DNA of 64,000 bases from Bifidobacterium sp. ESL0745 (GTDB lineage Bacteria > Actinomycetota > Actinomycetes > Actinomycetales > Bifidobacteriaceae): positions 124,001-188,000 of the forward strand of contig NZ_JAQTHX010000003.1 in assembly GCF_029433335.1 (NCBI RefSeq). The letters are read 5' to 3'. Both the position numbers and the translations under genes were made by a program. Within the stretch, counting starts at the first letter, position 1; each line of letters opens with the position of its first letter. The notes beneath the pieces are model-generated. The model had not been told where the DNA came from and made no database searches. It worked only from the letters and a program-made list of their open reading frames with translations. Positions 1 to 16,454 of this stretch are shown in pieces.

Positions 1-391
1 TCGCACCCTTATCGATATGCCCCGAGGACGTTCCGCGCAGCACGCTGACCACCGCGGAGGCGATGACGGCAAGCACAATCAAAACACCTGCCGCAATGAA
101 GGAACGGCTCAAGCCTGCCATGTTCATCTTGGTCAAAATGGCATATTCCTCGTCCCAAACAGCGGCAACGAACCGTCCCAAACCGACCAGTGAGAGCACA
201 AACGGGACATACTCGAGATAGGGAACCTTCGGAAGAAGGATGACAGTGAACTGGATCACGGCCGCCGCAACCATTACCACCGCAATAAGAATGGTGTGGT
301 TGCGGGCGCCACAAAGCACATAGACGATTCCTGCCGCGAATTCCAGTACCGCCGCAACGTACGCGGCTACCGATACCTTACTTACCTTCAT
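1..391 (-). CDS. Small multi-span membrane protein, 3' end outside window
   Basis: About 130 codons are visible, starting at an ATG at 391 and running off the window edge, so the C-terminus is missing. The product is strongly hydrophobic, with about three to four predicted membrane spans separated by short loops. A good ribosome binding site (AAGGAG, 399-404 on the reverse strand) lies 7 bases upstream and inside the end of the preceding GH3 gene; the two genes overlap by 14 bases, which implies translational coupling. The start resembles that of the protein at 15798-16250 (MKxxKxxSVxxYV pattern), which also directly follows a GH3 gene, so the two are probably paralogues. I do not recognise a named family. 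A role as partner or stabiliser of the anchored GH3 is an inference from position alone. Confidence 0.75.
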   Translation of the reverse strand, partial: MKVSKVSVAAYVAAVLEFAAGIVYVLCGARNHTILIAVVMVAAAVIQFTVILLPKVPYLEYVPFVLSLVGLGRFVAAVWDEEYAILTKMNMAGLSRSFIAAGVLIVLAVIASAVVSVLRGTSSGHIDKGA

Positions 392-3329
392 GTTCAGACT
401 CCTTCTCGATGATGGTGACGGACGCCTCGAAACGCTTCCGAACCATGAACACGGCCAAAATCACATCAGCCAAGGCCAACACAGCAATGACGACGTAGGC
501 GATAACCAGCCAGTAAGGCGTGACCTTGACGACACGGGACGTCGACGACAGGCCATTGACACCGATACTGTTGGCAAAATTGAAGAGGATGTAATGGCTT
601 GCCTCTTTGAGATTCGCCAGCATCTTGGCATCCTTTTTGGCCTTTGGCAGTGCAGCGTCATGGAAGGTCGTGGCCGAAGTCGCCCACATGCTGTTGCCGT
701 TTTGAAGACCGGCACCGATACTTTGCAGCGGAGGAATGACGGCCATGTCCGTGTCGATGATGGCGGTGGAACCCCATTCGCCACGTACCACGTCTTTGAG
801 CAGCGGCGAGAACGCTCCCGCCCAAGTGCAGCCGATCCTGTTGAACGATCCCATCGCAGCCTTGGCGTGCCCCTGCGTGAACGGCTTCTCGAATGCCTTG
901 AGATACAGTTCACGAATCGACTGTTCATTGGCGAACGTGCTGACACCCTGCCGGTTAGTTTCCTGCTCGTTCATCATGAAATGCTTGACAAACGCCACGA
1001 TACCGCGGGATTGCAGGCCCTCAACGGTCTCACAGGCCATATCCCCGGCCATCAGTCCGTCTTCGGAATAGTATTCGAAATTCCGGCCTCCATAGGGGGT
1101 GCGATGAATATTCATGGCAGGCGCGTATGCACCCGAGGTACCGGTACGTATCCAATCCTCGCCCATGGCCTTGCCGACACGACGAGCGAGCTCGTGGTTG
1201 AACGTCGAGGCCATAACCGTCTCGCTGCAGTAACCGGTAGGAGTCGTGCCGTCGGCAAGGTACTTACGTACATTCTCTCCGGCAGGACCGTCCTTCATGA
1301 ACAGCGCCGGGTAGGAAATCGAAGGCACAGCCACCTGGCCGGACCTCATCACCAAAGTGACCAGATCGTCCGCGCTCATCTGATCGATGAGCTTGTTCCA
1401 GCGCTTATCGTTGAATTTCGCGCCGGACATCTGCGCAAACGTCAGCCCGTTCTTTTGCTTGGTGACCACTGACGAGACATCCGAAGATCCGGGCTTGTAG
1501 GTGCCATCGGCATTGAGGTTGGCGATCATGGCATCGGTCGCTTCAAGACCGGTATACGGCTTGGGGAACGTGTTCCAGTCGGCACGGGTCAAATAACCCG
1601 CCTGCTTGCCATAGCCCTCCAGCGAGGCCTTGTCAAACCTGTTGGTGACGGATTTACCCGAATAGGATTTGCCGAGCTTGATCAGGCTTTGGTTGTTCCA
1701 TGAGAACACCTTGCTGGCCACTCCGGGTGCATCCATGCCATTGGAGACTGAGCTGCCGGATGCCGCAAGCACGTTGTTGAGGGCATCATGCGCACTGTCG
1801 CCCACCGCGAAACGATAGCTGCCGGGATCGAGCACAAAGGTTTTGGCACCTTGGTAATCGTAAGAGGCATAATCGGCGGGCTTGGCTTTGATGGTCACGC
1901 TCTGGCTTTGGCCGGGCTTAAGTTCTCCGGTCTTGCCGAATCCGACCAGTTGGATGGCGGATTTCTCAATACCTTTTTTGACGTATGGTTGCTGAGCGTA
2001 AAGCTGCACGACGCTTTTGCCTGCAACCTTGCCTGTGTTGGTGACTTGCACTGTGGCCGTGGCTCCGTCGGCATCCGCGTGGGAATCGACGATGCGTTGG
2101 TCGAACGGCTTCCCATCCGACGAACCGTAGCTCAGGCCGTATCCGAACGGATAGACGACCTCGTTATCGTAATTCCAAGCTTTGCCGTCACTGGCTCCGG
2201 CTGCCGAAACGGCATTCGTGCCTTTTGGATCGGTGACCGTATCGGCATAACGCGTTTCGTAATACCGATACCCGACGTAAATGCCTTCCCGATACACCAC
2301 ATATTTCGTGGCCATGGCCGCAGGATTCATCTGCTTGACGATTTTGCCGGCATTGGTATAAGTGAAATCACCGAAATTCTGCATCGCCGGCGACGAGAAC
2401 GAATTGGACGCGTAAGTGTCCACCAAGTGGCCGGAAGGATTGATCGCGCCATCAAGCGCACGCGCGATGGCACGCGATCCGCTCTGTCCCAAGCCGCCGA
2501 CCCAGAGCGCGGCGTCGATGCCGTATTCACGGCCCTGCAACCAGCCGAGTTCCATGGCGTTCGATGTGTTGATCAGGGCAATAATCTTATGGAATTTGCC
2601 GCTTTGCTGAATCTGGCGAAGTAGAGCCTTCTCCTGATCCTGCAGCTTCATGTATTGCGAGCCGTCACCGAACTTCGCGGTCGGCATGTCGCTGCCCTCC
2701 CCGCCTACTCGTGAGAGCACCACAACAGCCGCATCGTCATACTGTCCATAAGACTGTTTGACGGCATCCGTGTAGTCGGAAACAGGAGGCTCCGCAACGT
2801 GGATATCTTTCGGAAGGGCACCCAAAAACGTCCCGTTCGAACGGATATAGCCAGGCTTCCCGCTGTATTTCTTATAAAAATTCCAGAGAGTGGGGTTCAC
2901 CGCGAACCCTTCACCCTCCATGGCCTGCTTGAGGTCGATGGCCTTGGTCGGGTCAACGGTTCCGGCACCAGTGCCGCCGAGGACAAGGTCGGTCGAGGAA
3001 CGACCGAACAACGTCACTTTCGCCCCATGGGCCAGTGGCAACGCCGCGTTGTCGTTCTTGAGCAAGGTTATGCCTTCCCCTGCAACCTCCTGGACCAAGG
3101 AATCGGATTGCTTCTTCCAAGCGTTGAGCGACATACCGTTGTCGCGCGCATAACTGATTGGTTTGGCACCGTTGGTACCAGTGATTTTATAGGGCGAACC
3201 ACCAAGCGCAGTGATGACATAAGCGCTATAGGTCGAGGCGCCAGATGCCATGCCGACCGCCAATGCCAGCAGCGAGCTGACCACAGCGATCGCGACACGT
3301 AGCCCGCCGCTTGTCCGTTGTTTTGCCAT
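378..3329 (-). CDS. Membrane-anchored GH3 beta-glycosidase with permuted domain order
   Basis: Glycoside hydrolase family 3 enzyme of 983 residues, probably a beta-glucosidase or related beta-glycosidase acting outside the cell. The domain order is reversed relative to most GH3 enzymes: a GH3 C-type domain (about 80-400), a fibronectin-like domain (about 415-515), then the GH3 N-type barrel (about 640-900). Visible motifs are GGEGSD (E211, likely acid/base), DGPAG (D680), VKHF (K782-H783), RTPYGGR and EYYSED, and TDM with D861 as likely nucleophile. A hydrophobic N-terminal segment (about 10-32) and a C-terminal one (about 938-963) followed by a charged tail suggest anchoring at both ends. 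The ATG at 3329 was chosen because AGGAGAG sits 7 bases upstream; an in-frame extension further upstream has no such site. The substrate is unknown. It follows the minus-strand LytTR system on the same strand. Confidence 0.9.
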   Translation of the reverse strand: MAKQRTSGGLRVAIAVVSSLLALAVGMASGASTYSAYVITALGGSPYKITGTNGAKPISYARDNGMSLNAWKKQSDSLVQEVAGEGITLLKNDNAALPLAHGAKVTLFGRSSTDLVLGGTGAGTVDPTKAIDLKQAMEGEGFAVNPTLWNFYKKYSGKPGYIRSNGTFLGALPKDIHVAEPPVSDYTDAVKQSYGQYDDAAVVVLSRVGGEGSDMPTAKFGDGSQYMKLQDQEKALLRQIQQSGKFHKIIALINTSNAMELGWLQGREYGIDAALWVGGLGQSGSRAIARALDGAINPSGHLVDTYASNSFSSPAMQNFGDFTYTNAGKIVKQMNPAAMATKYVVYREGIYVGYRYYETRYADTVTDPKGTNAVSAAGASDGKAWNYDNEVVYPFGYGLSYGSSDGKPFDQRIVDSHADADGATATVQVTNTGKVAGKSVVQLYAQQPYVKKGIEKSAIQLVGFGKTGELKPGQSQSVTIKAKPADYASYDYQGAKTFVLDPGSYRFAVGDSAHDALNNVLAASGSSVSNGMDAPGVASKVFSWNNQSLIKLGKSYSGKSVTNRFDKASLEGYGKQAGYLTRADWNTFPKPYTGLEATDAMIANLNADGTYKPGSSDVSSVVTKQKNGLTFAQMSGAKFNDKRWNKLIDQMSADDLVTLVMRSGQVAVPSISYPALFMKDGPAGENVRKYLADGTTPTGYCSETVMASTFNHELARRVGKAMGEDWIRTGTSGAYAPAMNIHRTPYGGRNFEYYSEDGLMAGDMACETVEGLQSRGIVAFVKHFMMNEQETNRQGVSTFANEQSIRELYLKAFEKPFTQGHAKAAMGSFNRIGCTWAGAFSPLLKDVVRGEWGSTAIIDTDMAVIPPLQSIGAGLQNGNSMWATSATTFHDAALPKAKKDAKMLANLKEASHYILFNFANSIGVNGLSSTSRVVKVTPYWLVIAYVVIAVLALADVILAVFMVRKRFEASVTIIEKESEHEGK

Positions 3330-3369
3330 TGTTTTCTCTCCTAACAGCTCGGTTGGATGAGCTGGCACC

Positions 3370-3397
3370 AGCATAAAACCACACGATCTGCGCCAAA
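3370..3397 (-). promoter_or_regulatory. Candidate promoter of the minus-strand GH3 gene
   Basis: On the reverse strand TTTGGC (3397-3392) and TATGCT (3375-3370) are separated by 16 bases, a fair match to a sigma-70-type promoter. Transcription would start near 3363, leaving a leader of roughly 35 bases that contains the AGGAGAG site. The GH3 gene could therefore be transcribed separately from the upstream kinase gene. Confidence 0.45.
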
Positions 3398-3417
3398 CGC
3401 ACTAGGCAAAAATGTCA

Positions 3418-3434
3418 CGTTTTGTGGCAAAACG
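3418..3434. promoter_or_regulatory. Inverted repeat CGTTTTG-N3-CAAAACG upstream of GH3
   Basis: Perfect 7-base arms with a 3-base spacer, centred about 60 bases upstream of the predicted GH3 transcription start. That is a typical activator position. On the reverse strand it is followed by TGACATTTTT, so it could instead be a weak terminator for the kinase gene ending at 3461. The sequence alone does not decide. Confidence 0.35.
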
Positions 3435-3460
3435 GTACGCGACGCAGGTCTAGGCATCAT

Positions 3461-4759
3461 TCATTTCTTCACAAGATTGGATTGGGAGGGGAACAGGATA
3501 TTGGCCACGAAGCAATCATGACTTACTCCCAATTGCAATGTTCCGTCATATTTTCTGACCAGATAGCGCACACTGCGCAATCCGAAGCCGTGGTTGTCAA
3601 TGTCGCCTTTTGTGGTGTGAGGCAAGCCCTCGACCCACGTTTTCTGATTCTTCACATCCGGCGCATAATTCTCCACACTGACGCTGTCCATGGCACCTTT
3701 TGCGCGAATCGACACCGCGATGCTGCGCCTGGAAGCCGGCGAGACCGTGCGCTCATGCTCGATGGCATTGTCGAGCAGATTGCCGAACAACGATGACAAA
3801 TCCGCCGGTTGCAGGAATGAGACCGCCTCTCCCTGGGCGATAACGGTCAGGTTGATGTCACTTTGCTTGCACAACAGCTGCTTTTGACCCAAGACCAAGT
3901 CAAGATCCCTGTTTCCGGTGTCGAATTGGTTTTCGTAACGTGCGACCAGCGCCTCGATATTGTCCAGTTCGGCGTCATCGGTGGAACCGTGGGCACGGAT
4001 TCTGGCAATCTGGTGCTTCAAATCATGAGCTTTCATATTGATCAGGTCCATGCTCTCGCGCTCGATACGATATTGCCGAGCCTCGCCGCGGAGCATCCTT
4101 TCCAGCAACAATCGCTCGTCGGCACCGGTTTTCAGCGCGACCAGACCGGACTGCACGCACAGGCCGGCCAGACAGCACAAAATCAACGGCGGACGCACCA
4201 CCCATATGCGATCGATGCCATAGACCTGGAACGAATACTGCATAAGGTAGGTGAACAGCGCGCACAACACGGCAAACGGATACACGTAGATGCCGTTGAT
4301 GCCTTCGGCACCGTCCATGTTCATCCGCTGGACAAAAACGACAAAGCACACCGAGTACGTCAGGGCCATGCAACCGATGGAAAGGCACAGCCATGGCAAT
4401 GGGGTGAACGCATCCGGGAACAAATGATAAATCAGGCTTTCAATGTTATATGAAAGGTTCTGCATCAGCTGCGCACCGATACAGCAAAACAGCACCTCAC
4501 GGAAACCCCGTCGAAGAACCACTTTCCACATCGCCAAGGTCAGCAGGAATATCGTCAGCGAGAAAAAGCCGGAGACGAACATACTGACGATATTGGGTAC
4601 GACCACCATGCACGGCAAGGCGACCAGCAAGCCTATGATAAGCCGCACCGCAAATCCGTGCGGCTTCTTCAACGGCACCATGAACAGGAATTCGGCGATG
4701 AGGATCTGCAGGATATAGCCGTGCTGCACGCCGATGACGAACAACTGCTTGAAATCCAT
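3461..4759 (-). CDS. AgrC/ComD-like sensor histidine kinase (GHKL)
   Basis: Sensor kinase of 432 residues. The N-terminal half (about 1-210) is polytopic, with around six to seven hydrophobic segments, as in quorum-sensing kinases of the AgrC/ComD type. It is followed by a cytoplasmic coiled region with the sequence KAHDLKHQI, in which the His of HDLK is the likely phosphoacceptor, and a GHKL ATPase domain (LFGNLLDNAIEH as N-box; GFGLRSVRYLV as G-box). Its start codon shares one base with the stop codon of the LytTR regulator upstream (TGATG at 4761-4757), so the two are translationally coupled. The ligand is unknown: AgrC-type kinases usually sense peptides, and no pheromone precursor gene is visible nearby. 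Confidence 0.9.
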   Translation of the reverse strand: MDFKQLFVIGVQHGYILQILIAEFLFMVPLKKPHGFAVRLIIGLLVALPCMVVVPNIVSMFVSGFFSLTIFLLTLAMWKVVLRRGFREVLFCCIGAQLMQNLSYNIESLIYHLFPDAFTPLPWLCLSIGCMALTYSVCFVVFVQRMNMDGAEGINGIYVYPFAVLCALFTYLMQYSFQVYGIDRIWVVRPPLILCCLAGLCVQSGLVALKTGADERLLLERMLRGEARQYRIERESMDLINMKAHDLKHQIARIRAHGSTDDAELDNIEALVARYENQFDTGNRDLDLVLGQKQLLCKQSDINLTVIAQGEAVSFLQPADLSSLFGNLLDNAIEHERTVSPASRRSIAVSIRAKGAMDSVSVENYAPDVKNQKTWVEGLPHTTKGDIDNHGFGLRSVRYLVRKYDGTLQLGVSHDCFVANILFPSQSNLVKK

Positions 4760-5466
4760 CAGGCCCTCCTCGCCACAAACACCGTCAGCGCCTTACGGAA
4801 ATCGGCACGGCAGGTGCGTGAAACCGGCAGCCGTTCGCTGACGCCATCCAATGTCACTCCTGTGGCATCGACGGCAATGACATAGGCCATGTTGACCAGT
4901 ATGGATTTGCGAATCATCGCGAAACCCTGGGCCTTGAACGAATCCACAATCGAGCTGATAGTGCCCCGCATACGCAAGTCGCCTGCAGTGGTATGCAACA
5001 CGATGTAGTGTTTTTGGCTTTCGACATACATGATGGTGGAATAGCGCACTGATTGCATGCCACCGACCTGTTGTATGACAAATGCGGCATCTACGTGCAC
5101 GCTGCTCACCGCGCGATCCATCTTGATCACAAACAAATCGTAATCCAGCGGCTTCACCACATAGTCAAGCGCCGCCACCTCGTAACCATGAATGGCATAC
5201 TGCGACATGCTGGTAATAAAAACAAGACAGACATCCGCATCCTGCCGACGCATGCGTTTGGCGGTCTCAATCCCATTGATATGCGGCATGACGACGTCCA
5301 TAAACACAATCTGGAACTGCCGGTGAAACCCTTCGAGGAAGGCGGCGCCATCTGCAAAACGAACGACATCGATCTTCATATGGCGTTCGGCGGCATACCG
5401 CTTGATATAGCTCTCCAACAACGCGGAGAAAACGACATCATCTTCGACAACCGCGACGCTGAGCAT
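4759..5466 (-). CDS. LytTR-family response regulator (AgrA-like)
   Basis: Response regulator of 235 residues: a receiver domain with acidic pair ED/DD near residue 8-10 and phosphoacceptor D57 in FMDVVMP, then a C-terminal LytTR DNA-binding domain (conserved pattern VESQKHYIVLHT and SRTCRADFRKAL). It forms an operon with the downstream kinase through a one-base overlap. The ATG at 5466 is preferred because GGAAGG lies 7 bases upstream; an in-frame ATG at 5472 would leave almost no spacing. LytTR proteins usually bind paired direct repeats upstream of their targets; the adjacent GH3 gene on the same strand is an obvious candidate target, by position only. Confidence 0.9.
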   Translation of the reverse strand: MLSVAVVEDDVVFSALLESYIKRYAAERHMKIDVVRFADGAAFLEGFHRQFQIVFMDVVMPHINGIETAKRMRRQDADVCLVFITSMSQYAIHGYEVAALDYVVKPLDYDLFVIKMDRAVSSVHVDAAFVIQQVGGMQSVRYSTIMYVESQKHYIVLHTTAGDLRMRGTISSIVDSFKAQGFAMIRKSILVNMAYVIAVDATGVTLDGVSERLPVSRTCRADFRKALTVFVARRA

Positions 5467-5528
5467 GCCCATACCTTCCCGACCATGTCTTGCACTTCTT
5501 TACATGCAACTCTAAATCAATGGATACC

Positions 5529-5542
5529 TTGTTTAGAAACAA
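5529..5542. promoter_or_regulatory. Inverted repeat TTGTTT-N2-AAACAA between the two regulators
   Basis: Six-base perfect arms separated by two bases, about 65 bases upstream of the minus-strand regulator start, in the 274-base divergent intergenic region. Position and symmetry suggest a protein-binding site, but short AT-rich dyads occur by chance. Confidence 0.3.
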
Positions 5543-5593
5543 TTTAGCGGTCCGATGCAAGAATTGATGATTTCCGGCATAAACGTACCATAA

Positions 5594-5636
5594 AGCGATA
5601 TCGTTGCCTAAAAACAGGTAGTGAACCAGCGATATC
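5594..5636. promoter_or_regulatory. Direct repeat AGCGATATC, two copies 34 bases apart
   Basis: Identical nine-base copies at 5594-5602 and 5628-5636 in the intergenic region between the two divergent LytTR regulator genes. The 34-base spacing is close to three helical turns, so both copies face nearly the same side of the DNA. The first copy extends into the palindrome CGATATCG. This is the best candidate for a shared operator for the divergent promoters; it does not match the usual LytTR consensus that I know. Confidence 0.35.
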
Positions 5637-5740
5637 ACCCGCCCGCCCCACAACCAAAGTGAGCCGCGCCGACAGACAGGGGCACACTGCCTAGGATGTA
5701 ATATAAGAAAATACGAAATCCTGAGAGGAAACCGAAAAGG

Positions 5741-6466
5741 ATGATGATAACCGTTGCGCTGATCGAAGATGACGCAACCGCCATGCGCCATTTGCGTGAT
5801 TCCATCGAACGTTTCCAAAACAGCGGGAAATCACAAGGAACCGAATTCAACATCGCCGAATTCAACGAGCCCACGTCGTTCCTCGACCCATATCGCGGCA
5901 GCTACGATATCGTGTTCATGGACATCGAGATGCCCAATATGAACGGCATGGAAGCGGCGCGGCGCCTTCGGCAAATCGACCCGCACACCATCATCATCTT
6001 CGTGACCAACATGGCCCAGTTCGCCGCAAAAGGCTACGAGGTCGACGCACTGGCCTACATCATCAAGCCCTTCACCTACAACGATTTCGAGCAGAAACTT
6101 GAACGCGCGGTCGACCTTTGCCGCAGGAAGTCGGAATCCTTCGCCATCACGCAACGCGGCGAAATGAAAATAGTATTGCTAAGCGACCTGGCCTACATCG
6201 AGGTCAAAGGCCACACCCTCGTCTTTCACACCGATCAGGAAGAGCTCATCGGATCGGGCAGCTTGCAAGAGGTGCAGGCCAAACTGGAGGGCAAGGGGTT
6301 TCTCAGAAGCGGCAAATCGTATCTGGTCAACCAACGATTCATCAAGGAGATACACCGCTCAGAAATCTTCATGTCCGATGGCTCCATACTGCCTATCGGC
6401 CGTTCGTACCATAAGACGTTTCTGACACAGCTGGCGCAAAGTCTGGGCAGCGATCATGTGCTCTGA
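5741..6466 (+). CDS. LytTR-family response regulator (second, divergent copy)
   Basis: Response regulator of 241 residues, similar in layout to the minus-strand regulator at 4759-5466: receiver domain with acidic pair E9-D10-D11 and phosphoacceptor D61 in FMDIEMP, LytTR domain in the C-terminal half ending in GRSYHKTFL. GAGAGG lies about 12 bases upstream of the first of two consecutive ATG codons. The downstream kinase gene starts 11 bases before this gene ends, so they are co-translated. A possible -10 element (TAATAT, 5699-5704) precedes it. It is transcribed toward the GH78/GPH/GH3/GH2 genes, which are plausible targets by position. Confidence 0.9.
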   Translation: MMITVALIEDDATAMRHLRDSIERFQNSGKSQGTEFNIAEFNEPTSFLDPYRGSYDIVFMDIEMPNMNGMEAARRLRQIDPHTIIIFVTNMAQFAAKGYEVDALAYIIKPFTYNDFEQKLERAVDLCRRKSESFAITQRGEMKIVLLSDLAYIEVKGHTLVFHTDQEELIGSGSLQEVQAKLEGKGFLRSGKSYLVNQRFIKEIHRSEIFMSDGSILPIGRSYHKTFLTQLAQSLGSDHVL

Positions 6467-7856
6467 AATCATCGCCGTAGCCGGCGCCACAGTTAATGCC
6501 GCAGCCATCGCCAACACGGTAACCATCGCGGAAAACGCTCAAACAGGTTCGGCAATCAATGGCATCCTATGGTTTTTCAATGCTTGCGGGTTCCTCTTCG
6601 AAATGCTCATCGCCTTGGCAATGTTCGTGTGGAGGCTGGAACGCAAGCGGCATTTCGCGATTCGCTTCACTTGCTCGGCCGCAGTGATGATCGCCATCGC
6701 CATCGCGTGGACGAAATTCATACCCAGTAACGCCTGGACCCTTATCGCGCGCTGCACGCTCTTTTATGCGATGTGTTACATCACACTGCTGGTGTGCATG
6801 GAGCTGAACGCCCGTCAGGCCTTGTTCTATCTCGTCGCAGGCGTGGCCACGCAGCATCTCGCCTATTGCGCGGCGCTAATCGTGGTCATGCTGGTCAATC
6901 CGGGCAACTACAGCATCGGCACATCCATTTCGTCACTGATCTACCCGCTGGCGCTCATACCCTGTTTCGCCATCGCCTACTGGCTTTTCGCCCGCCCGTT
7001 GGCGCACACTGTGCCGGATTCCAGTCTGAGCTCGCATATGCTGCTTCTGTTCATCGGCGTCCTGCTGTGTGTCAACGTCTTCGCCTGCCTGTTCGACGGC
7101 TTCGTGGCCGGCCAGCAACTGCCGTATCTCGCCTACATGATGTGTGTGTTGACACGGTTGGTGACCTGTTCCTTCCTGCTGATGCTGCTGCGTGAAATCG
7201 TCGAACGCAGCCAGGCCGAACGCGACGGCGCGGTGCTCCAGCAGCTGCTCAACCAGCAGAAATCGCAGATGGCCCGCGACAGAGAGACCATCAATCTCAT
7301 CAACGTCAAGACGCACGACCTCAAGAAACAGTTGACAAGTCTGGGAAACAAAATCGGCAAGGATGAAATCACTGGGCTTAACAATCTCGTGGACATCTAC
7401 GACAGCTCCGTGCGCACCGGCAACGAGACGCTTGACATACTGCTGGCACAGAAATCACTGATCTGCGAGCAACGCGGCATCTCGTTCGAACGCCTCATTG
7501 ACGGCCACGCCATCGATTTCATGAAACCGGCCGACATCTACGCCCTGTTCGGCAACGCGATGGACAACGCGTTGGAGGCGCTGAGCCGGCTCGACCAGTC
7601 CGACAAGACGACGCCCCGCACGATACGCATGCAGGTCAAGCACGACAAAGGCGTAACCGTCATCCACATCGCCAATCCGTACCAAGGCACCCTCACTTTC
7701 GACCACGACCTGCCCGTCACCACCAAAAGCGACAGCCGCTACCATGGCTTCGGCATGCGTTCCATTCAGTTGGTCGTGGAGCACTATCACGGGGCGCTGA
7801 GCATCGAGACGCAGCATCAATGGTTCTCGCTCAATATCGTATTGAGTGGCGAATAG
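6456..7856 (+). CDS. AgrC/ComD-like sensor histidine kinase (second copy)
   Basis: Sensor kinase of 466 residues with about six to seven N-terminal membrane spans (roughly 30-245), a linker with KTHDLKKQL (likely phosphoacceptor His) and a GHKL ATPase domain (LFGNAMDNALEAL; GFGMRSIQLVVEHYHG). It is a paralogue of the minus-strand kinase at 3461-4759, sharing the HDLK motif, the LDxxLxQKxLxC segment after it, and the TTK(G/S)D..xHGFGxRS end. The ATG at 6456 overlaps the regulator gene by 11 bases. The signal sensed is unknown; the genetic link to rhamnosidase and GH3 genes argues for a function in glycoside use, but this is inference. Confidence 0.9.
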   Translation: MCSEIIAVAGATVNAAAIANTVTIAENAQTGSAINGILWFFNACGFLFEMLIALAMFVWRLERKRHFAIRFTCSAAVMIAIAIAWTKFIPSNAWTLIARCTLFYAMCYITLLVCMELNARQALFYLVAGVATQHLAYCAALIVVMLVNPGNYSIGTSISSLIYPLALIPCFAIAYWLFARPLAHTVPDSSLSSHMLLLFIGVLLCVNVFACLFDGFVAGQQLPYLAYMMCVLTRLVTCSFLLMLLREIVERSQAERDGAVLQQLLNQQKSQMARDRETINLINVKTHDLKKQLTSLGNKIGKDEITGLNNLVDIYDSSVRTGNETLDILLAQKSLICEQRGISFERLIDGHAIDFMKPADIYALFGNAMDNALEALSRLDQSDKTTPRTIRMQVKHDKGVTVIHIANPYQGTLTFDHDLPVTTKSDSRYHGFGMRSIQLVVEHYHGALSIETQHQWFSLNIVLSGE

Positions 7857-8144
7857 AGCCAAACCACCTGTCGTTCTTGACTATTTTGCTGCGCAGCGTG
7901 ATTGGCCGCAAAACATGTATTACAACATTGTCAAAACCAGAATATCGTCACCGTTTATGTCTGACATCACATCGAAACGTCAGCACGGGCCTTGTCGTTC
8001 GTGACGCAAAAAACGCGTTTCAAGTGGTCGGCATTGATTCGCCATGCCGGCGGATTCACACTGAAGCTGTAGCGCAAAGGAGCGGTCCAATGCGCCGGCA
8101 ATCACAATCGGTTGAGATATGGGAACCTTGGGAGGCTGATGGTC

Positions 8145-10880
8145 ATGCTTTCGATTGACAGGCTGGCTGTGGAAAACCTTGAGCACGGCTGCGTGAGTGA
8201 CAACGAGCACCCACGGATGTCATTCAGCACCAGCAGCGACGTTCCCGGCGAGCGCATCGCACAGGCGACGTTGAGCGTCAACGGCTGGACACACACCGGC
8301 ACGGAGCAGATTGCCATCCCTTACCAAGGCGAGCCTTTGCAGCCTTTCACTGTTTATCCGGTCACGCTTGAGGTCACCGATGCAAGCGGCAATCATGCGA
8401 GCGCCGCCACCACCTTCGAAACCGGACGCCTCGGCACCCCTTGGAAGGGCTCGTGGATCAGCGATCCAAACTATCATTTCACCGCCAAAAAAGTTTCGCC
8501 GACGCCGATGGTCTTCCGCAAACGTCTCGCACCGAAGCAACAACACATCAAGCGGGCCAGGCTTTACGCCACAGCCATGGGCATCTATGAATTTTCGATA
8601 GACGGGCATCGGGTCGGTGACCAATACTTCGTTCCCGGTTTCACTTCCTACGCCACCAATCTGCAATACCAGACATACGATGTGACCGACCTGTTCAAGG
8701 CCGATGGCGACGTAGACGAAAACGGTACACACACCCTCATGGCCACGGTGGCCGGCGGATGGGCCGTGGGTTCATTCGTCTTCACCCGCAAGAACCGCAT
8801 CAGCGCCGACCGACAGGCCCTACTGGCCGAATTACGTCTCGATTTCGAAGACGGCACCAGCGAAACCATCGCCACCGACGAATCCTGGGAGGTCTGCGAA
8901 TCAGGGCCATACCGCATGGCCGACATCTACGACGGCGAGACCTACGATGCCACCATGGAGCTCGGCCCGGACGGGCAACACGGCACGCAATGGCATCCGG
9001 CAGCCGTCGAGACTCTGCGCCATAGCCCCAGCATCACCGCCGATTACGGTTCTCCCGTCCGTGCCCATGAGATATTCGACCCCGTCAGCCGCACGAAAGG
9101 CCCTGACGGCGAAACCATCTATGATATGGGCCAGAACTTCGCAGGCGTGGTCCGCCTGCATATCCGCAAGGCACACCAAGGGCAACGCATCATCGTCCGG
9201 CACGCGGAAATCCTCAACACCAAAGGCGGCCTGAACACGACGTTCCTGCGCACCGCCAAAGCCACAGCCACCTATACCTGCGTCGACGGCGAGCAGACCT
9301 ATATGCCACATTTCACCTATATGGGCTTCCGTTATGTCAGCATCGAGGGCATCGATCCCGCCGACATCGACGTGGAAGGCATGGCACTCTATTCCGATCT
9401 GAGGCGAATCGGCGATTTCGAATGCAGCGATGCCAGACTCAACCAGTTGCAAGACAATATCGTATGGGGCGCGAAATCGAATCTGATGGACATCCCCACC
9501 GACTGCCCGCAACGCGACGAACGAATGGGATGGACGGGCGACATCGCGGTCTTCGCCCCCATCGCCTGCGCCAATTTCGACATGGAACGTTTTCTGGAGA
9601 AATGGCTTCGTGACGTCAAGGCCGAACAGCACAGGGGCGGCGGCATCCCCAACACCGTGCCGGCGCAGGGATATGGCTTCCCGGCGACCATGCCCACCAT
9701 GGCCATCGACTGGTGGGGCGATGCCTGTGTATTGGTGCCATGGGTGCTTTACCAGGCCAACGGCGATGCCACGGTGCTCGAAACGATGTATCCAGTCATG
9801 AAAAAGTATGTGAAAGCCTGCCGTTTCTGGGCCGGTCTGGTTGGCTTCGGCCGTCAACGCTATATCTGGCACACCCCGTCCTCCCTGCATTTCGGCGATT
9901 GGGTGGCGCCGGACGTGCCGAAGATGAGCCAATGGCAGCAGCGCAGCAAGTGGACAGCCACCGCGAGCCTCAACAACACCAGCCGAACCTTGGCAAAAGT
10001 GGCGCATGTGCTCGGCCATCAAGAAGATGCCGACCGGTACAACGCACTGGCCGACAAGGTGGCCGACGCCTATTGCACACTGCTGAGCGACGGCAAAGGG
10101 CGCATGAAGTCGGAGTTCCAGACCGCCTATGTTCTGCCGCTATATCTGCATATGTTCCCGCGCAGGCTGCAGGCCACGGCCGCCGCCAATCTGGCACGCC
10201 TGGTGAAAAGCAACGGCTACCGCATCGGCACCGGCTTCCCTGGAACGCCATATATCCTTTTCGCGCTTGCCGACAACGGCCAGGTCGACACCGCTTACCG
10301 GATGCTGCTCAACACCTCATGCCCCTCATGGCTCTATGAAGTCAAAATGGGGGCGACCACCATCTGGGAACGTTGGGACGGGCTCGACGAAAACGGCGAA
10401 TGCCCCATCGGCGACGACGGCACCGACCTGATGATCTCCTACAACCACTATGCCTCCGGAGCCGTCGGGGACTTCATGTACCGCCGCATCGCCGGCATCG
10501 AGCCGATTGAGGCGGGCTACCGACGTTTTGCCGTCCATCCGGTGCCCGGAGGCGGCCTGACCTACGCACAGGCCCAGTTCACCACGCCTTACGGCACCAT
10601 CCACGTCGAATGGCATATCGATGAAGCCGATGCTGAGACCAGCGGCGAGAACGCCAACAACGAACACCAGCAGCAATTCACCATCGAACTTGACGTCCCG
10701 ATGGGCACCTCGGCCTTGGTAACCCTGCCGGACGAATCAAGCAGGAACGCCGAATCAGGGCATCATCGCTTCAGCTGCGGTTTGACAGACGAAACCGCTG
10801 AAGAAATCACCGAACAGGCAACCGATGCCGTACCTGCCGCTGCCGCAACACAGCCCGAAAACCAACAGCCACGAGACTAA
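8145..10880 (+). CDS. Alpha-L-rhamnosidase, GH78
   Basis: Cytoplasmic (no signal peptide) GH78 enzyme of 911 residues, expected to release L-rhamnose from rhamnosides. The N-terminal beta-sandwich domains cover about 1-400, the (alpha/alpha)6 catalytic barrel follows, and a C-terminal beta domain closes the protein. The catalytic signature DCPQRDERMGWTGD (D453, E459 and D466 as expected catalytic/acidic residues) and the second signature GATTIWERWD (E742, likely base) are intact. The ATG at 8145 is preferred: GGGAGG (8130-8135) lies nine bases upstream, whereas the ATG at 8139 is too close and an in-frame TTG at 8112 has no site. A symporter gene follows 53 bases downstream, making import then hydrolysis of rhamnosides the likely pathway. 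Confidence 0.93.
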   Translation: MLSIDRLAVENLEHGCVSDNEHPRMSFSTSSDVPGERIAQATLSVNGWTHTGTEQIAIPYQGEPLQPFTVYPVTLEVTDASGNHASAATTFETGRLGTPWKGSWISDPNYHFTAKKVSPTPMVFRKRLAPKQQHIKRARLYATAMGIYEFSIDGHRVGDQYFVPGFTSYATNLQYQTYDVTDLFKADGDVDENGTHTLMATVAGGWAVGSFVFTRKNRISADRQALLAELRLDFEDGTSETIATDESWEVCESGPYRMADIYDGETYDATMELGPDGQHGTQWHPAAVETLRHSPSITADYGSPVRAHEIFDPVSRTKGPDGETIYDMGQNFAGVVRLHIRKAHQGQRIIVRHAEILNTKGGLNTTFLRTAKATATYTCVDGEQTYMPHFTYMGFRYVSIEGIDPADIDVEGMALYSDLRRIGDFECSDARLNQLQDNIVWGAKSNLMDIPTDCPQRDERMGWTGDIAVFAPIACANFDMERFLEKWLRDVKAEQHRGGGIPNTVPAQGYGFPATMPTMAIDWWGDACVLVPWVLYQANGDATVLETMYPVMKKYVKACRFWAGLVGFGRQRYIWHTPSSLHFGDWVAPDVPKMSQWQQRSKWTATASLNNTSRTLAKVAHVLGHQEDADRYNALADKVADAYCTLLSDGKGRMKSEFQTAYVLPLYLHMFPRRLQATAAANLARLVKSNGYRIGTGFPGTPYILFALADNGQVDTAYRMLLNTSCPSWLYEVKMGATTIWERWDGLDENGECPIGDDGTDLMISYNHYASGAVGDFMYRRIAGIEPIEAGYRRFAVHPVPGGGLTYAQAQFTTPYGTIHVEWHIDEADAETSGENANNEHQQQFTIELDVPMGTSALVTLPDESSRNAESGHHRFSCGLTDETAEEITEQATDAVPAAAATQPENQQPRD

Positions 10881-10933
10881 AACATCCGCAAACAAGCCAG
10901 ATCCGAACCTTTTAGCAAGAGAAAAGAACTCCA

Positions 10934-12553
10934 ATGAACTCCACCAACAATGACACCGCCAAGACCGCCGAAGCGGGTGAAACGCTCAACGTCAGCGGCA
11001 ACGCTTTCGTCCGCTTCTTCAACCGGCCGATCGTGCGCACGCGCATCACCACCGCCAAGGTCAGGCCACCGGAAATGCTGCTGGGCTATCTGGTCGGGCC
11101 GTTCTGCGCGCTGATCTCCAACGCCATCTTCGGCTCGTATCTCAACCGTTACTATTCCGACGTGCTCGGCTGGACCGATACGTCGAAATTCGGCGCGTTC
11201 TCGGCAATCCTGCCCATTGTTTCAGTCATCGTGGTGGTTATCGGCAACCTCGTCATCGGCCATCTGATCGACAACACGCGTACCGCACAAGGCAAGGCAC
11301 GACCGTTCATGCTGCTGTCAGTGCCGTTTTTGGTGGTCGCCATCGCCCTGCTGTTCCTCACCCCGCGCAACTCCTCGCCGGCAGTGCAGATGGCCTGGAT
11401 CGCGATTTCATACAATCTTTACTACGCCGTGGCCTATCCGCTTTTCTACACGGCGCACAGCTCCATGGTCGGGCTTTCCACACGCGACACCAACCAACGC
11501 GGGCTTCTGGCCACCCTTTCCAACGCCTCGGGCGTTGCCGCGATAGGAATCGGCGCCAGCATCGTGGTGCCCATCGCACTGCAGAGTTTCCTGTTTGTCG
11601 ACAATCAGGGCCACATCGACGCCGCGGCAAGCTACGCCCACTGGCGTGTGCTGATGATCGCGCTGTGTGTGCTCACCGCCGTCGGCATCCTCTGCGAATA
11701 CTATTTCACCCGCGAGCGCATCACCGAAGAGAACCTGAACCTCAACATCGTCGAGGAAAAACTGCCAATCGCCAAGCAGGCCAAGGCGTGCATGTCCGAG
11801 CGCTACTGGTGGCTCATCATCGGCTATTTCCTGCTCTTCCAGCTTTCCGGCATGATCAAGAACGGCTCAATGAGCTATTACAGCCGATGGATGTTCGACG
11901 GCGTCAACACCGAAGCCACGGCCGGCGCGGCCATGAGCACACTCGGTCTGATCGGCGGCATCCCCACGGCTATCGGCATGCTGGTGGCCTGGCCCATCGC
12001 CAACAAGATCGGCAAGCGCAACGCCGTGGGATTCGGCATGATCATCGCCGTGCTCGGCGGATGCGTAAGCCTCTTCAATGTGCATAGCATCGTGATGGTA
12101 TGCATCGGCGTCGTACTCAAAGGCATCGGCTCCATCCCGGCGATGTACGTCACGCTCGCCCTGCTATCCGACGTGCTCGACCATCTCGAGGCCAAGAACG
12201 GCTTCCGCTCCGACGGCTTCACCATGTCGGTTTACGGGGCGATCATGGTCGGCATGTCCGGCCTAGGCAACGGGCTCATCAACCTGCTGCTGACCATGGC
12301 CGGCTACAATCCCACCGCCGCAACCCAGAATGCTGGCGTGCAAAACGTACTCGTCGCCTGCTACCTGGGTGCGGAGCTGGTGTGCTATGCCCTCATCGCA
12401 GTACTCATGGCTTTCCTCAACGTCGAAAAGCACATCAAGGAAGACCAGCAAACCATCGTGGAACATCAAAAGCAAACCGTTCAGGCGCAAGGAGGAACCT
12501 GGGTCGATCCGGAGCAAAAACTGCTGGATGAACAGCAATCGGCACAAGCCTGA
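10934..12553 (+). CDS. GPH-family glycoside:cation symporter
   Basis: Transporter of 539 residues with about twelve membrane spans and the layout of the MelB/GPH branch of the major facilitator superfamily: an early PPEMLLGYLVGP segment in the first helix region, a polar loop after helix 2 (RTAQGKARPF), and a central loop before helix 7. The N-terminal ~45 residues and C-terminal ~35 residues are polar and cytoplasmic. It lies between the GH78 and GH3 genes on the same strand, so an aryl or disaccharide rhamnoside, or the rhamnose-containing product of surface GH3 action, is the expected cargo. AAGAGAAAAG precedes the start by about 7 bases. Confidence 0.9.
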   Translation: MNSTNNDTAKTAEAGETLNVSGNAFVRFFNRPIVRTRITTAKVRPPEMLLGYLVGPFCALISNAIFGSYLNRYYSDVLGWTDTSKFGAFSAILPIVSVIVVVIGNLVIGHLIDNTRTAQGKARPFMLLSVPFLVVAIALLFLTPRNSSPAVQMAWIAISYNLYYAVAYPLFYTAHSSMVGLSTRDTNQRGLLATLSNASGVAAIGIGASIVVPIALQSFLFVDNQGHIDAAASYAHWRVLMIALCVLTAVGILCEYYFTRERITEENLNLNIVEEKLPIAKQAKACMSERYWWLIIGYFLLFQLSGMIKNGSMSYYSRWMFDGVNTEATAGAAMSTLGLIGGIPTAIGMLVAWPIANKIGKRNAVGFGMIIAVLGGCVSLFNVHSIVMVCIGVVLKGIGSIPAMYVTLALLSDVLDHLEAKNGFRSDGFTMSVYGAIMVGMSGLGNGLINLLLTMAGYNPTAATQNAGVQNVLVACYLGAELVCYALIAVLMAFLNVEKHIKEDQQTIVEHQKQTVQAQGGTWVDPEQKLLDEQQSAQA

Positions 12554-12702
12554 TCCACAGGCTCAAAGCCACAACGCTCAACCGGATGTGCCGCCGATGA
12601 CAAAGCGAGTCGGAAGCGGCAATGGAAACGAGAAAGAGACATTTGCGATCCGAATGGCCGATGCCGACCGTCCGGACAACGAACAAGGAAGGAAATATCG
12701 CA

Positions 12703-15700
12703 ATGACACAACACAACAACACAAGGGCGTGGAGAGGGGTTACGACGACATTCGCCGCGTTGCTGGCCTTCTCCTTAGCGGCGACGAGCGCCGTCAGCGG
12801 TTTCCGCACCGACATCGACAAGTTCCTCGGGACCAAGAGCAGCGAATTCGTCACCGCCGCGAAGGACCCGGCCAAGACCTTCACCTATCACTCGGATTAC
12901 AAGGACACCAAGCAATTGGTGCAATCCATCCGCGATCTCGGCGAGCAGATGAGCGCGGAGGGCTCGGTACTGCTGAAAAACAACGGCGCGCTGCCGCTGA
13001 GCAAAAACGAGACACAGGAGGTCTCCCTGCTCGGTTTCTCGAGCTACTACCCCGCCGCAGGCGGTGATATGGGCTCCAGCGCCGCAACCAACACGGGCAC
13101 CGACGCCGATTCCGTGGATATGGTGGCCGCGTTCAAGGCCCGCGGTTTCGCCATCAACGGGACCCTGGCCAAGATGTATGGGGCGCTCAAGAACGACGTG
13201 TCAACCGAAGTCAATAATTTCGGCCACAAAAGCGTGCTCACCCACATCACCGCGCCGATGATCGGCAAGCCATTCTCCAGCAAGGAACCTTCCCAAAGCA
13301 AGCTGGACGCCACTCAACCGGACTGGAAGGCAAGTCTGAACCAGAACAACGTCATGGTCGTCACCCTGGCGCGAGCGGCCGGTGAGAACCGTGCCTATCT
13401 GCCCGGCAAAGCAGGCGTCGACCCCACGCAGAACCTCAACCAGACCGATCCGCTCGGGCTTTCCAATGACGAACGCGATTTGGTCAATACGGCCATCAAC
13501 GTCAAGAAGGCCAACGGCGGCAAAGTCGTCGTGCTGCTCAACAACGCCAATCCGATGCAGGTCAAAGAACTACAGGACAACGCAGGGGTGGACGCCATGC
13601 TGCAAATCGGCATGCCGGGCAGCTATGGCTTCTACGGTGTGGCCGATCTGCTCACGGGCAACGCGAACCCGTCCGGACGTCTCGCCGACACCTGGGCCGT
13701 CAACAACGCCAGCGCACCGGCAGTACGCAATTATGGCGACCTCAAGTGGAAGAACCCCAACCAAAAGCACACCATCAATTCGGAAATCGTGCAGGCCGAG
13801 GGCATCTATACAGGCTATAAGTATTACGAAACCCGCTATGCGGACACCGTCACCAAATCCGGCAACGCGGACGGCACTGCCGGCAGCACTGATGGCAAGG
13901 CCTGGAACTATAACAACGAGGTGCTCTACCCGTTCGGTTACGGACTGAGCTACACCACCTTCAAGCAGAAGCTTGACAGCGTCAATGTCGATCTCAAGGC
14001 CAAGACCGTCACTTCCAAGGTGACGGTGAGCAACACCGGCAAGGTCGCGGGCAAGGATGTGGTCGAGCTCTACTCCTCCGCCCCCTATACCTCCTACGAC
14101 GCCAAACACGGGGTCGAAAAGCCCGCGGTACAGCTTTTCGACTATGCCAAGACCGGTAAAATCGAACCGGGCCAGTCACAGACCGTCACCATCAAGTCGG
14201 ACGCGCAGTACCTGGCCAGCTGGGATTCGACCCTGCGCGACAATTCCGGCGGCTACAGGCTTGACGCTGGTGACTATACCTTCGCCATCGGCTCCGACGC
14301 CCACAACGCCACCGACAACATGCTCGCCATGACCGGCGCAAACACCAAGGGCGACAAGACCCAGGCCGCCAGCTGGAAGCTCGGCAGCGACGATACCACC
14401 ACCTTCGAGAAATCGAAGAACGGCACGGTCGTCAAGAACCAGCTGCAGGACGCGGACCTCAACCACTGGATGAAGGGCACCGTCACCTATCTGACCCGCT
14501 CCGACTGGCAGGGCACATGGCCCAAGACCTACGAGAACCTGACCGCGAGCGATGCGATGCTCAAGGCCGGGCTGGAGAACCAGACCTACACCATCAAGCC
14601 CAACAACGATGCCAAGGCCACGAAGTTCGGTGCCAGCAACAACATGTCGCTGGCCAACCTCAAGGGTGTCAAGAACATCAAGGACCCGCGCTACAAGAAG
14701 CTGATGGACCAGATCACCCTGCCCGAAGCCATGATCCGCACCGCATTCGGCGGCACTTCCACCAAGCCGATCACCTCGATCAACTCCCCTGAAGTGGTCC
14801 AGAACGACGGCCCGAACGGTTTCGGCTCCTATCCTCTCGGCCAGTACGCCAACAAGGACAAGTCCTCCGGCGACCCGTACGCGATCTCCAAAGATGACAA
14901 GAACATGAAGTTCAAGATGAACGTCATGGCCACCGACTCGGTGATCGGCCAGACCTTCAGCAAGGATCTGGCGAAGCAGTGGGGCAAGGCCCTCGGCAAC
15001 TACTCCATCTGGGCGAACACCACGCTGCTGTGGGGTGTGGGCACGAATCTGCACCGCACGCCGTACAACGCCCGCAACCACGAGTACTATTCCGAAGACC
15101 CGATCCTGACCGCCTATGAAGGCTCCGCTACCGTCAAAGAGGCTCTGAAGTACGGCTGCATCATCGCGCCCAAGCATTTCGCGTTCAACGACACGGAAAT
15201 CAACCGCACCGGCGTGGCCACATTCGTCAGTGAGCAGAAGGCACGCGAAGGCGAGCTGAGGGCTACACAGCCCGTCGTCGAGGACGCGGGAACGCTGGGC
15301 ATCATGACCGGTTTCAACCGCGTCGGCGTGCAGAGCGTCAACGCGAACACCCCGCTGCTCATCAACATCCTGCGCGATGAGTGGGGCTTCAAGGGCTTGG
15401 TCTCCCAGGACTTCATCATGGATCCGGAATACCAGAACCTCCCGGCGTTCGCCCACAACGGCGGCACCATGCTCACCACGACCGGCGACGACAACCTCAA
15501 CGCGGTAGCCAAGCACTGGCCCTTCTGGACGCAGAAGAACGTGAGCAGCGACAGCACCATGTGCGCGGACCTCAAGCGCAACATGACCTGGCAGAATTAC
15601 GCGTACGCCAACTCCAACGCCATGGACGGCATGAACTCGAGTTCGCACTTCGTCCATCTGCGCACCTGGTATGACAACGTGCTGCTGGCCGCTTCCATCC

Positions 15701-15786
15701 TCACCGGACTGCTGACGCTGCTTGGCGCGGTGATGTATGTGCGCTCAAGCCGCAAGGCCCAAACCTCAAACGAACAAAGCAAGTAG
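12703..15786 (+). CDS. Membrane-anchored GH3-type glycosidase, permuted, divergent motifs
   Basis: Second GH3 protein, 1027 residues, with the same permuted order as the one at 378-3329: C-type domain (about 70-415), fibronectin-like domain (about 430-535), N-type barrel (about 660-930). One hydrophobic segment is N-terminal (about 12-32) and one C-terminal (about 985-1008) with a short basic tail, so it is probably a surface enzyme anchored at both ends. KHF (K824-H825), RTPYNAR and YYSED are recognisable; the likely nucleophile is D903 in SQDF. Several positions differ from usual GH3 enzymes: AGEN instead of GEGxD near E228, and DGPNG without the following Arg. It may have altered specificity or reduced activity. 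The ATG at 12703 has AAGGAAGG about ten bases upstream. Confidence 0.88.
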   Translation: MTQHNNTRAWRGVTTTFAALLAFSLAATSAVSGFRTDIDKFLGTKSSEFVTAAKDPAKTFTYHSDYKDTKQLVQSIRDLGEQMSAEGSVLLKNNGALPLSKNETQEVSLLGFSSYYPAAGGDMGSSAATNTGTDADSVDMVAAFKARGFAINGTLAKMYGALKNDVSTEVNNFGHKSVLTHITAPMIGKPFSSKEPSQSKLDATQPDWKASLNQNNVMVVTLARAAGENRAYLPGKAGVDPTQNLNQTDPLGLSNDERDLVNTAINVKKANGGKVVVLLNNANPMQVKELQDNAGVDAMLQIGMPGSYGFYGVADLLTGNANPSGRLADTWAVNNASAPAVRNYGDLKWKNPNQKHTINSEIVQAEGIYTGYKYYETRYADTVTKSGNADGTAGSTDGKAWNYNNEVLYPFGYGLSYTTFKQKLDSVNVDLKAKTVTSKVTVSNTGKVAGKDVVELYSSAPYTSYDAKHGVEKPAVQLFDYAKTGKIEPGQSQTVTIKSDAQYLASWDSTLRDNSGGYRLDAGDYTFAIGSDAHNATDNMLAMTGANTKGDKTQAASWKLGSDDTTTFEKSKNGTVVKNQLQDADLNHWMKGTVTYLTRSDWQGTWPKTYENLTASDAMLKAGLENQTYTIKPNNDAKATKFGASNNMSLANLKGVKNIKDPRYKKLMDQITLPEAMIRTAFGGTSTKPITSINSPEVVQNDGPNGFGSYPLGQYANKDKSSGDPYAISKDDKNMKFKMNVMATDSVIGQTFSKDLAKQWGKALGNYSIWANTTLLWGVGTNLHRTPYNARNHEYYSEDPILTAYEGSATVKEALKYGCIIAPKHFAFNDTEINRTGVATFVSEQKAREGELRATQPVVEDAGTLGIMTGFNRVGVQSVNANTPLLINILRDEWGFKGLVSQDFIMDPEYQNLPAFAHNGGTMLTTTGDDNLNAVAKHWPFWTQKNVSSDSTMCADLKRNMTWQNYAYANSNAMDGMNSSSHFVHLRTWYDNVLLAASILTGLLTLLGAVMYVRSSRKAQTSNEQSK

Positions 15787-15797
15787 GGAGAACTGCC

Positions 15798-16250
15798 ATG
15801 AAATTCATCAAACAACAATCGGTCGGTTTCTACGTCAACGCCCTCGCGCTCATCGTCGGTATCGCGGCCGTCGCCTATTACCTGGTCAACGCCCACACCG
15901 ACACCTTCACCAACATCGGCACCAGCGCATTGGTCATGGCATTGACCGTCCTCGCCCTGCTCATGCTGGTCGCGGTGCTCGTCATCCGACAGATGCCGAT
16001 CGCACGCGGATTTGCGGCGAACACCCTGCTGGATGTGTGCTCGCTGGCCGCTCCGGTGCTGCTCATCGTTTCGGTGGTGTCGATCATCGCGAGCCGGGTC
16101 GACACGTTCGCGAGCATTCTGACGTTCCAGCAGAACGCCCACACCACCGCCGACATGCACAGCGCCATAGTCGCAATCGTGGCGTATTTTGTCGCGGCAC
16201 TGCTTGCGGTCATCGCCTCGTTCTTCAAAGTCAACAAGAACGAGCAGTGA
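15798..16250 (+). CDS. Small four-span membrane protein paired with GH3
   Basis: Protein of 150 residues with four predicted membrane spans and a short charged tail (KVNKNEQ). It begins 11 bases after the GH3 stop codon, with GGGAG just upstream, so it is almost certainly in the same transcript. It appears to be a paralogue of the partial protein at 1-391, which follows the other GH3 gene in the same way. No named family is recognised. Repeated pairing with double-anchored GH3 proteins suggests a dedicated partner, perhaps for membrane insertion or assembly; this is inference. Confidence 0.8.
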   Translation: MKFIKQQSVGFYVNALALIVGIAAVAYYLVNAHTDTFTNIGTSALVMALTVLALLMLVAVLVIRQMPIARGFAANTLLDVCSLAAPVLLIVSVVSIIASRVDTFASILTFQQNAHTTADMHSAIVAIVAYFVAALLAVIASFFKVNKNEQ

Positions 16251-16281: not shown

Positions 16282-16330
16282 CGAGATGTGAAGTATCGTT
16301 ATTACAAAGATTGCTTCACATCTCGTTTTT
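16282..16330 (+). terminator. Rho-independent terminator after the GH3 / membrane protein genes
   Basis: Perfect 12-base stem (CGAGATGTGAAG at 16282-16293 with its complement at 16314-16325), a 20-base loop and a run of five T. It ends the plus-strand transcript before the GH2 gene, which therefore needs its own promoter. Confidence 0.85.
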
Positions 16331-16355
16331 GCCTCAGACGTGTCTTGGATATGTC

Positions 16356-16375
16356 TTGCGAACATGCAGTCGCAA
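16356..16375. promoter_or_regulatory. Inverted repeat TTGCGA-N8-TCGCAA upstream of GH2
   Basis: Perfect 6-base arms in a 20-base window, about 80 bases upstream of the GH2 start and just after the previous terminator. Size and position fit an operator for a LacI- or GntR-type sugar repressor, but no such regulator is encoded here. Confidence 0.35.
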
Positions 16376-16454
16376 CGGTTTCACGACGGGACGTCCATTG
16401 CATGAACGCAATACAACGAAAACCGATGAATACAATCAAACGAAGGGGCAACCG

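Follow-up and report, generated by a model that had tools for sequence, protein, structure and literature searches.

Why do two LytTR/GHKL regulator pairs stand back to back among glycoside hydrolase genes, with the same gene types on either side? The question is raised by the left end of a window of 64,000 nucleotides from Bifidobacterium sp. ESL0745 (G000:C3:124001-188000; whole genome 2.36 Mb), in which two pairs of response regulator (RR) and sensor kinase (HK) genes diverge from a common 268-base gap (Pfam), and each arm carries a GH3 gene followed by a gene for a small protein with four transmembrane helices (4-TM protein). The arms are likely two cassettes that were acquired separately and belong to a widespread module, barely studied so far, in which LytTR/GHKL serves a doubly anchored GH3. 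In functional terms, both probably belong to one widespread class of glycoside-use systems, in which the pair controls a doubly tethered, permuted GH3 beta-glycosidase together with the adjoining genes. This reading is based on the anatomy of the locus, the catalytic residues, the controlled pairing of GH3 with LytTR genes, the history of the cassettes and the spacing of upstream repeats, which were observed directly; from these we infer that the paired regulator controls the GH3 gene, that the GH3 faces outward, and what the substrates and the signal may be. The features are as follows (aa, amino acids; TM, transmembrane helices).

1..391, minus strand, continuing 40 bases past the left edge of the window: arm A small membrane protein, 143 aa, four predicted TM (hydropathy)
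378..3374, minus strand: GH3-A, permuted, predicted helix at each end (Pfam, TM scan, catalytic columns)
3405..3436, minus strand: candidate LytTR box in the gap between HK and GH3, direct repeat ACCGTTTTGCC / ACATTTTTGCC, 21 bp apart
3461..4759, minus strand: arm A GHKL sensor kinase, 432 aa, membrane N-terminal half (Pfam, TM scan)
4759..5472, minus strand: arm A response regulator, REC+LytTR (Pfam)
5473..5740: divergent gap between the regulators, 268 bases
5741..6466, plus strand: arm B response regulator, REC+LytTR (Pfam)
6456..7856, plus strand: arm B GHKL sensor kinase, 466 aa, about seven predicted TM (Pfam, TM scan)
8112..10880, plus strand: GH78 alpha-L-rhamnosidase, no predicted TM (Pfam; NCBIfam matches below cut-offs)
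10934..12553, plus strand: GPH-type sugar symporter, MFS_2 (Pfam; TIGR00792 at E 8e-44, below cut-off)
12622..15786, plus strand: GH3-B, permuted, predicted helix at each end (Pfam, TM scan)
15798..16250, plus strand: arm B small membrane protein, 150 aa, four predicted TM, without a Pfam or NCBIfam match
16311..19271, plus strand: GH2 enzyme, final gene of arm B (Pfam)

Arm A (minus strand) thus reads RR, HK, GH3-A, the 143-aa 4-TM protein and a membrane esterase (PF00756), with which the arm continues beyond the left edge of the window; arm B (plus strand) reads RR, HK, GH78, GPH transporter, GH3-B, the 150-aa 4-TM protein and GH2. The arm A cassette has no transporter, and arm B clusters glycosidases, a transporter and a regulator. 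Both regulators (receiver plus LytTR) exceed the Pfam cut-offs; both kinases have HATPase_c_5 above cut-off and several TM, which makes them polytopic GHKL kinases. The start of the arm A 4-TM gene overlaps the stop of GH3-A by 14 bases, and GH3-A itself likely starts at the ATG at 3329, judged by a Shine-Dalgarno-like stretch. A preliminary description of this DNA had reported divergent LytTR regulator-kinase pairs and, in each arm, a permuted GH3 with an adjoining small membrane protein; Pfam found REC+LytTR and GHKL on both sides and the permuted domain order in both enzymes, and hydropathy gave four helices for each small protein. About 4.5 kb to the left of the window lies a gene for a 1132-aa surface-type protein with repeated segments (L008:12073-15471).

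Both GH3 enzymes have the domain order GH3_C, Fn3-like, GH3_N (Pfam), referred to here as permuted, and hydropathy places helices at residues 25 and 957 of GH3-A and at residues 40 and 1020 of GH3-B. The best solved match of GH3-B is 5k6l (GlyA1), in which residue Asp709 is the nucleophile (PMC5104943); D930 aligns with this residue. The nucleophile D930 is kept in 152/154 permuted GH3s (loci L058-L177 plus the present island), the other two being gaps, and the acid/base candidate E255 in 153/154. As the pairwise alignment to GlyA1 skips E255, this residue was assigned by motif only. By their kept residues, both GH3s look like working enzymes. Helices at both ends were found in 51/55 permuted GH3 frames of more than 900 aa from 40 same-genus loci and the island; the remaining four have a helix at one end only, and one of these is truncated by the end of its locus. 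In the loci of the species-genome scan described below, both-end helices occur in 83/101 permuted GH3 frames versus 0/18 canonical ones.

The same sandwich, Fn3 and barrel order is found in the permuted GH3 subfamily of GlyA1 (PMC5104943) and BrGH3A (PMC11233000). The words transmembrane and regulator are absent from the main texts of both reports, whereas the GH3s here are doubly anchored and linked to LytTR/GHKL; in the available text of a report on a bee amygdalin GH3 (PMC9897726), the words transmembrane, membrane and regulator do not occur.

Pairing with LytTR was counted in 101 same-genus genomes, with up to seven GH3 candidates scored per genome. Of the 121 permuted GH3 places, at least 77 have a listed LytTR domain no more than 10 kb away; about 4.1 would be expected if LytTR domains were scattered at random at the density observed (computed with rounded genome sizes). 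The 121 places were obtained from 127 rows by excluding six second pieces of genes already counted. As controls, 63 places of a canonical group were used (relatives of one canonical GH3, L091:294-2645, at E 1e-80, with split pieces merged), of which two are near a listed LytTR, both adjoining a permuted GH3; among the matches listed, none of 150 GH36 places is near a LytTR. The difference between permuted and canonical groups gives a Fisher P of 2e-17. Among the matches listed, 29 of the 121 GH3 places have no LytTR on the same contig. In the genome of ESL0745 itself, 4/4 permuted GH3 places are within 10.2 kb of one of four full-length LytTR regulators. The preliminary description had put forward co-occurrence in other genomes as a check on its proposal, and the pairing proved general in the genus and beyond chance. 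The genome also contains three short-frame LytTR proteins (173-188 aa), none of them near a permuted GH3 place, at C3:111657-111962 (L004) and C1:30888-32976 (L005, L006); other short frames occur elsewhere in the genus.

The pairing extends across phyla. Species genomes were scanned by GH3 alignment similarity alone, and the best 80 of 592 confirmed relatives were taken; these are the GH3s most like the query and hence give no rate for permuted GH3s overall. The 80 loci comprise 64 from Bacillota, 11 from Actinomycetota (including two, L100 and L116, from Bifidobacterium asteroides), one from Spirochaetota and four unplaced. LytTR is present in 46/80, 44 of them with a GHKL kinase too, where about 3.5 loci with LytTR are expected by chance from the LytTR density in 23 scanned genomes. 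In Demequina (one LytTR per 3.2 Mb genome) and in an Oscillospiraceae genome (one per 1.7 Mb), the GH3 locus holds a LytTR.

Two types of module were distinguished by their small membrane proteins. The arm type has a small 4-TM protein of 129-176 aa after its permuted GH3, and 34 such proteins were aligned. Among these 34 proteins no Pfam family is common to more than two members, and the arm A protein has no Pfam match at E 0.1. In the GtrA type, the gene after a soluble canonical GH3 encodes a GtrA-family protein, and a permuted GH3 and RR/HK lie nearby. Many genomes of the genus have this type, and it was also met in Lachnospiraceae, Cellulomonas, Cellulosimicrobium, Demequina and Fusibacter; its partner matches PF04138 in 31/31 cases. 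Assignment of the arm-type protein to GtrA was rejected: the 25 families listed for these 34 proteins do not include PF04138, and hhalign between the two small-protein families gave a probability of 0.2, which is no match. Public records label relatives of the arm B 4-TM protein in B. lemurum and B. ramosum as 'sodium:proton antiporter', and no shared family match backs this label. A GtrA-type module is also present on contig 2 of ESL0745 (L071:3337-17000), where a permuted GH3, a protein of 1098 aa that contains a GH106 rhamnosidase domain, a canonical GH3 and a GtrA-type 4-TM protein lie with HK/RR.

For trees, 90 modules were drawn by nearness from 97 trios (the HK of L088 is split, and one piece was used). 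Of these modules, 25 carry the short partner and 23 the GtrA partner. Over these 48 modules, parsimony requires three changes of partner type on the RR tree, two on the HK tree and two on the GH3 tree, compared with about 16 in shuffles. Such clustering is co-inheritance, and contact is not thereby demonstrated.

LytTR domains bind paired boxes that are spaced by about two turns of the helix, and the gaps ahead of GH3 genes were analysed for such spacing. Self-similarity of 38 upstream gaps peaked at lag 21 (z 6.5) and lag 20 (z 3.1), and no further lag between 11 and 44 exceeded z 2.1. A repeat run gave z 6.4 at lag 21 within the genus (n=22) and z 3.2 at lags 20 and 21 in other genera (n=15); in its nonredundant set, lag 29 reached z 2.5. 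The arm A repeat ACCGTTTTGCC / ACATTTTTGCC has a single-sequence shuffle P of 0.025, uncorrected for the several regions inspected, and no clear 20-22 bp repeat was found in the 268-base gap between the regulators.

Together, these features suggest the following scheme. At the cell surface, the GH3 would trim terminal beta-linked sugars off plant glycosides or oligosaccharides; within the membrane, the polytopic kinase would read the action of the GH3 or its product; the LytTR regulator would bind the repeats ahead of the GH3 gene and raise its expression; and the products would be imported and then finished inside the cell. For arm B, GH78 and GPH make a rhamnoside a plausible substrate.

How the kinase might read the enzyme was approached through covariation. 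Hydropathy gives neither kinase a large extracellular domain. The membrane half of the kinase, corrected for the catalytic half, correlates with GH3 at a partial rank r of 0.22 over the 90 modules, a value reached in 0/500 permutations; the catalytic half, corrected for the membrane half, gives 0.07 (29/500 permutations). The bootstrap difference between the two correlations ranges from 0.009 to 0.289. The expected opposite was seen for the receiver domain, which is tracked by the catalytic half of the kinase. The covariation fits a match between kinase input and GH3 action, via a shared ligand or contact, and leans weakly towards a GH3 and small protein that would prepare or present the signal; the effect is small, and other causes, for instance unequal evolutionary rates, can produce it.

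Several results weigh against control of the GH3 by its neighbouring pair. Thirty-four of the 80 scan loci show no LytTR, some of them on short contigs, and 42 of the 90 modules carry neither 4-TM type beside them. In the scan loci the double anchor does not predict a LytTR within 5 kb (28/71 double-anchored GH3s versus 17/33 other GH3s, Fisher P 0.29), because soluble canonical GH3s share the same loci. Canonical GH3s of GtrA-type loci are near LytTR too (8/16 within 5 kb), so that the canonical control covers one other group only. Both the covariation and the clustering of partner labels may be plain co-inheritance. With regard to the repeats, lag 21 also reached z 2.6 in control regions past GH3 stops and z 7.2 in random windows (n=148), where lags 12, 15 and 42 stood out as well, which represents a codon rhythm; these last three lags are absent from the gaps upstream of GH3. 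A consensus scan for LytTR boxes gave no excess over shuffles, which is why the consensus-free spacing test was used, and in arm B no clear repeat pair was found. Given the null result of the consensus scan and the lack of a pair in arm B, the repeats are support, not proof.

Two related accounts place the enzyme itself in the signalling path. According to the first, the double-anchored GH3 and its 4-TM partner would form the input subunit of the kinase, giving an enzyme-sensor complex in the membrane, so that the GH3 would be more than the product of a target gene. Kinases without a large extracellular domain beside GH3s that are helical at both ends would suit such a complex, as would the closer tracking of GH3 by the kinase membrane half and a 4-TM partner type that follows the HK clade. 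The covariation effect is small, however, and near its limit, and a Lachnospiraceae locus (L099, described below) has the arm B enzymes with an HK of another clade, so that the partners appear swappable; we regard this account as a tentative possibility. The second account is broader, namely a glycosidase-gated class of two-component systems across phyla, in which an active, doubly tethered GH3 with a 4-TM partner (of the unnamed family or GtrA) would be the extracellular input of an AgrC-like kinase that itself lacks a large extracellular domain, and enzyme turnover at the surface would be the signal. We consider it doubtful.

Less probable still is that these are ordinary peptide quorum-sensing pairs which drive the glycosidase genes by cell density. 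The make-up is AgrC/AgrA-like, and RR-B reaches E 6e-9 with the AgrA model, a score far below the cut-off. Against this stands the finding that AgrB (PF04647) has no match in the genome, although the model matched 1/14 control genomes, and that below cut-off, so that its reach may be short. The gap between the regulators holds only unsupported open reading frames of 25-126 aa and no supported peptide gene, and the pairing is with one enzyme class across several phyla. A membrane-based glycoside system beside LytTR/GHKL, as the preliminary description had proposed, is supported by the general pairing, the kept catalytic residues, the upstream repeats, the lack of an AgrB match in the genome and the lack of a supported peptide gene between the two regulators.

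The history of the cassettes was read from trees of RR, HK and GH3. In all three, arm A lies closest to L094 from the same genus and to L116 from B. asteroides. Arm B lies closest to L087 and L088 in RR and HK, and to L100 and L078 in GH3. Seen from one arm, the other takes a rank between 24 and 78 of 89 in nearness. Approximately unbiased (AU) tests, run with 19 rows each and quick trees, rejected the arms as sisters for HK (p 2.8e-42), RR (p 1.2e-62) and GH3 (p 2.5e-50). Local duplication and inversion of one module, which the mirror layout with the same gene types on both sides would suggest, is already refuted at the gene level by these trees, in which the arms lie far apart and the sister pair is rejected in all three genes, and we consider it almost certainly wrong. 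The system had been called duplicated in the preliminary description, with kinase and GH3 trees named as the check on whole-module duplication; that part fails, since the nearest kin are other cassettes. Likewise, the two pairs are paralogous as kin within a wide family and not as local duplicates.

The gene orders of the two cassettes recur elsewhere. L116 repeats the order of arm A (RR, HK, GH3, 4-TM protein, esterase), and L100 repeats that of arm B up to the 4-TM protein; the two are separate places in one B. asteroides genome, that of strain ESL0199. L099, from the Lachnospiraceae assembly RUI004 (L099:3689-13476), has RR, HK, GH78, GPH, GH3 and 4-TM protein in arm B order without GH2, with an identity to the window of 57 percent for GH3 and 59 percent for GH78. 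Its RR and HK group with L082, apart from arm B, and its GH3 groups with arm B; enzyme sets thus spread between phyla and may change regulator lineage yet keep the regulator type. In L088 (L088:57-1429) the GHKL kinase lies in two open frames with GH3 pieces nearby, so this copy looks decayed.

A membrane kinase with a LytTR regulator, as found here, is also the basis of AgrC/AgrA quorum sensing and of pyruvate sensing by BtsSR and YpdAB. In these systems the input and gene content differ from those of the two arms, and the ESL0745 genome has no AgrB match. RsgI-type anti-sigma factors use an extracellular glycosidase-like ectodomain as sensor for enzyme genes. They are single fused proteins of a sigma/anti-sigma system, as opposed to the two-component system here, and are an analogy only. 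In descriptions of bifidobacterial glycan loci, LacI or AraC regulators predominate. The same holds for the glycan loci of the Roseburia group of gut bacteria, as presented in PMC5320581. The Gram-positive polysaccharide utilisation loci of Roseburia and Eubacterium rectale in that report likewise cluster glycosidases, a GPH or ABC transporter and regulators; one of them, Roseburia cluster Ros-7, is listed with RR[LytTR] but no GH3. In Cellulosilyticum ruminicola a LytTR gene lies beside glycosidase genes, as here, and is up 1.5-fold on filter paper and 11.5-fold on xylan relative to cellobiose (PMC5733062); according to this source, it is linked to endoglucanase and cellobiohydrolase genes, not GH3.

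The closest precedent is a 2010 paper on Butyrivibrio proteoclasticus B316, in which LytTR regulators are placed beside secreted GH3s with a C-terminal transmembrane helix (PMC2914790). The association of LytTR with GH3 was therefore not first seen here. That report covers one genome in one sentence, and its relevant passages make no mention of an N-terminal helix or a domain order, of a 4-TM partner, or of other phyla, controls or a mechanism. No further report of the association was found in searches of an open-licence library. New here are the breadth of the pairing, with controls, the double anchoring, the 4-TM partners and the history of the cassettes.

One LytTR/GHKL class is thus tied to one enzyme class in both Actinomycetota and Bacillota, and its recurrence in other gut bacteria suggests a little-studied way of sensing plant sugars, in which the enzyme itself may, interestingly, be the sensor. 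If the pairing is functional, it would offer a testable case of a surface enzyme that reports to a kinase through the membrane and a role for two families of 4-TM partners, and the gene context may suggest inducers for many orphan LytTR systems.

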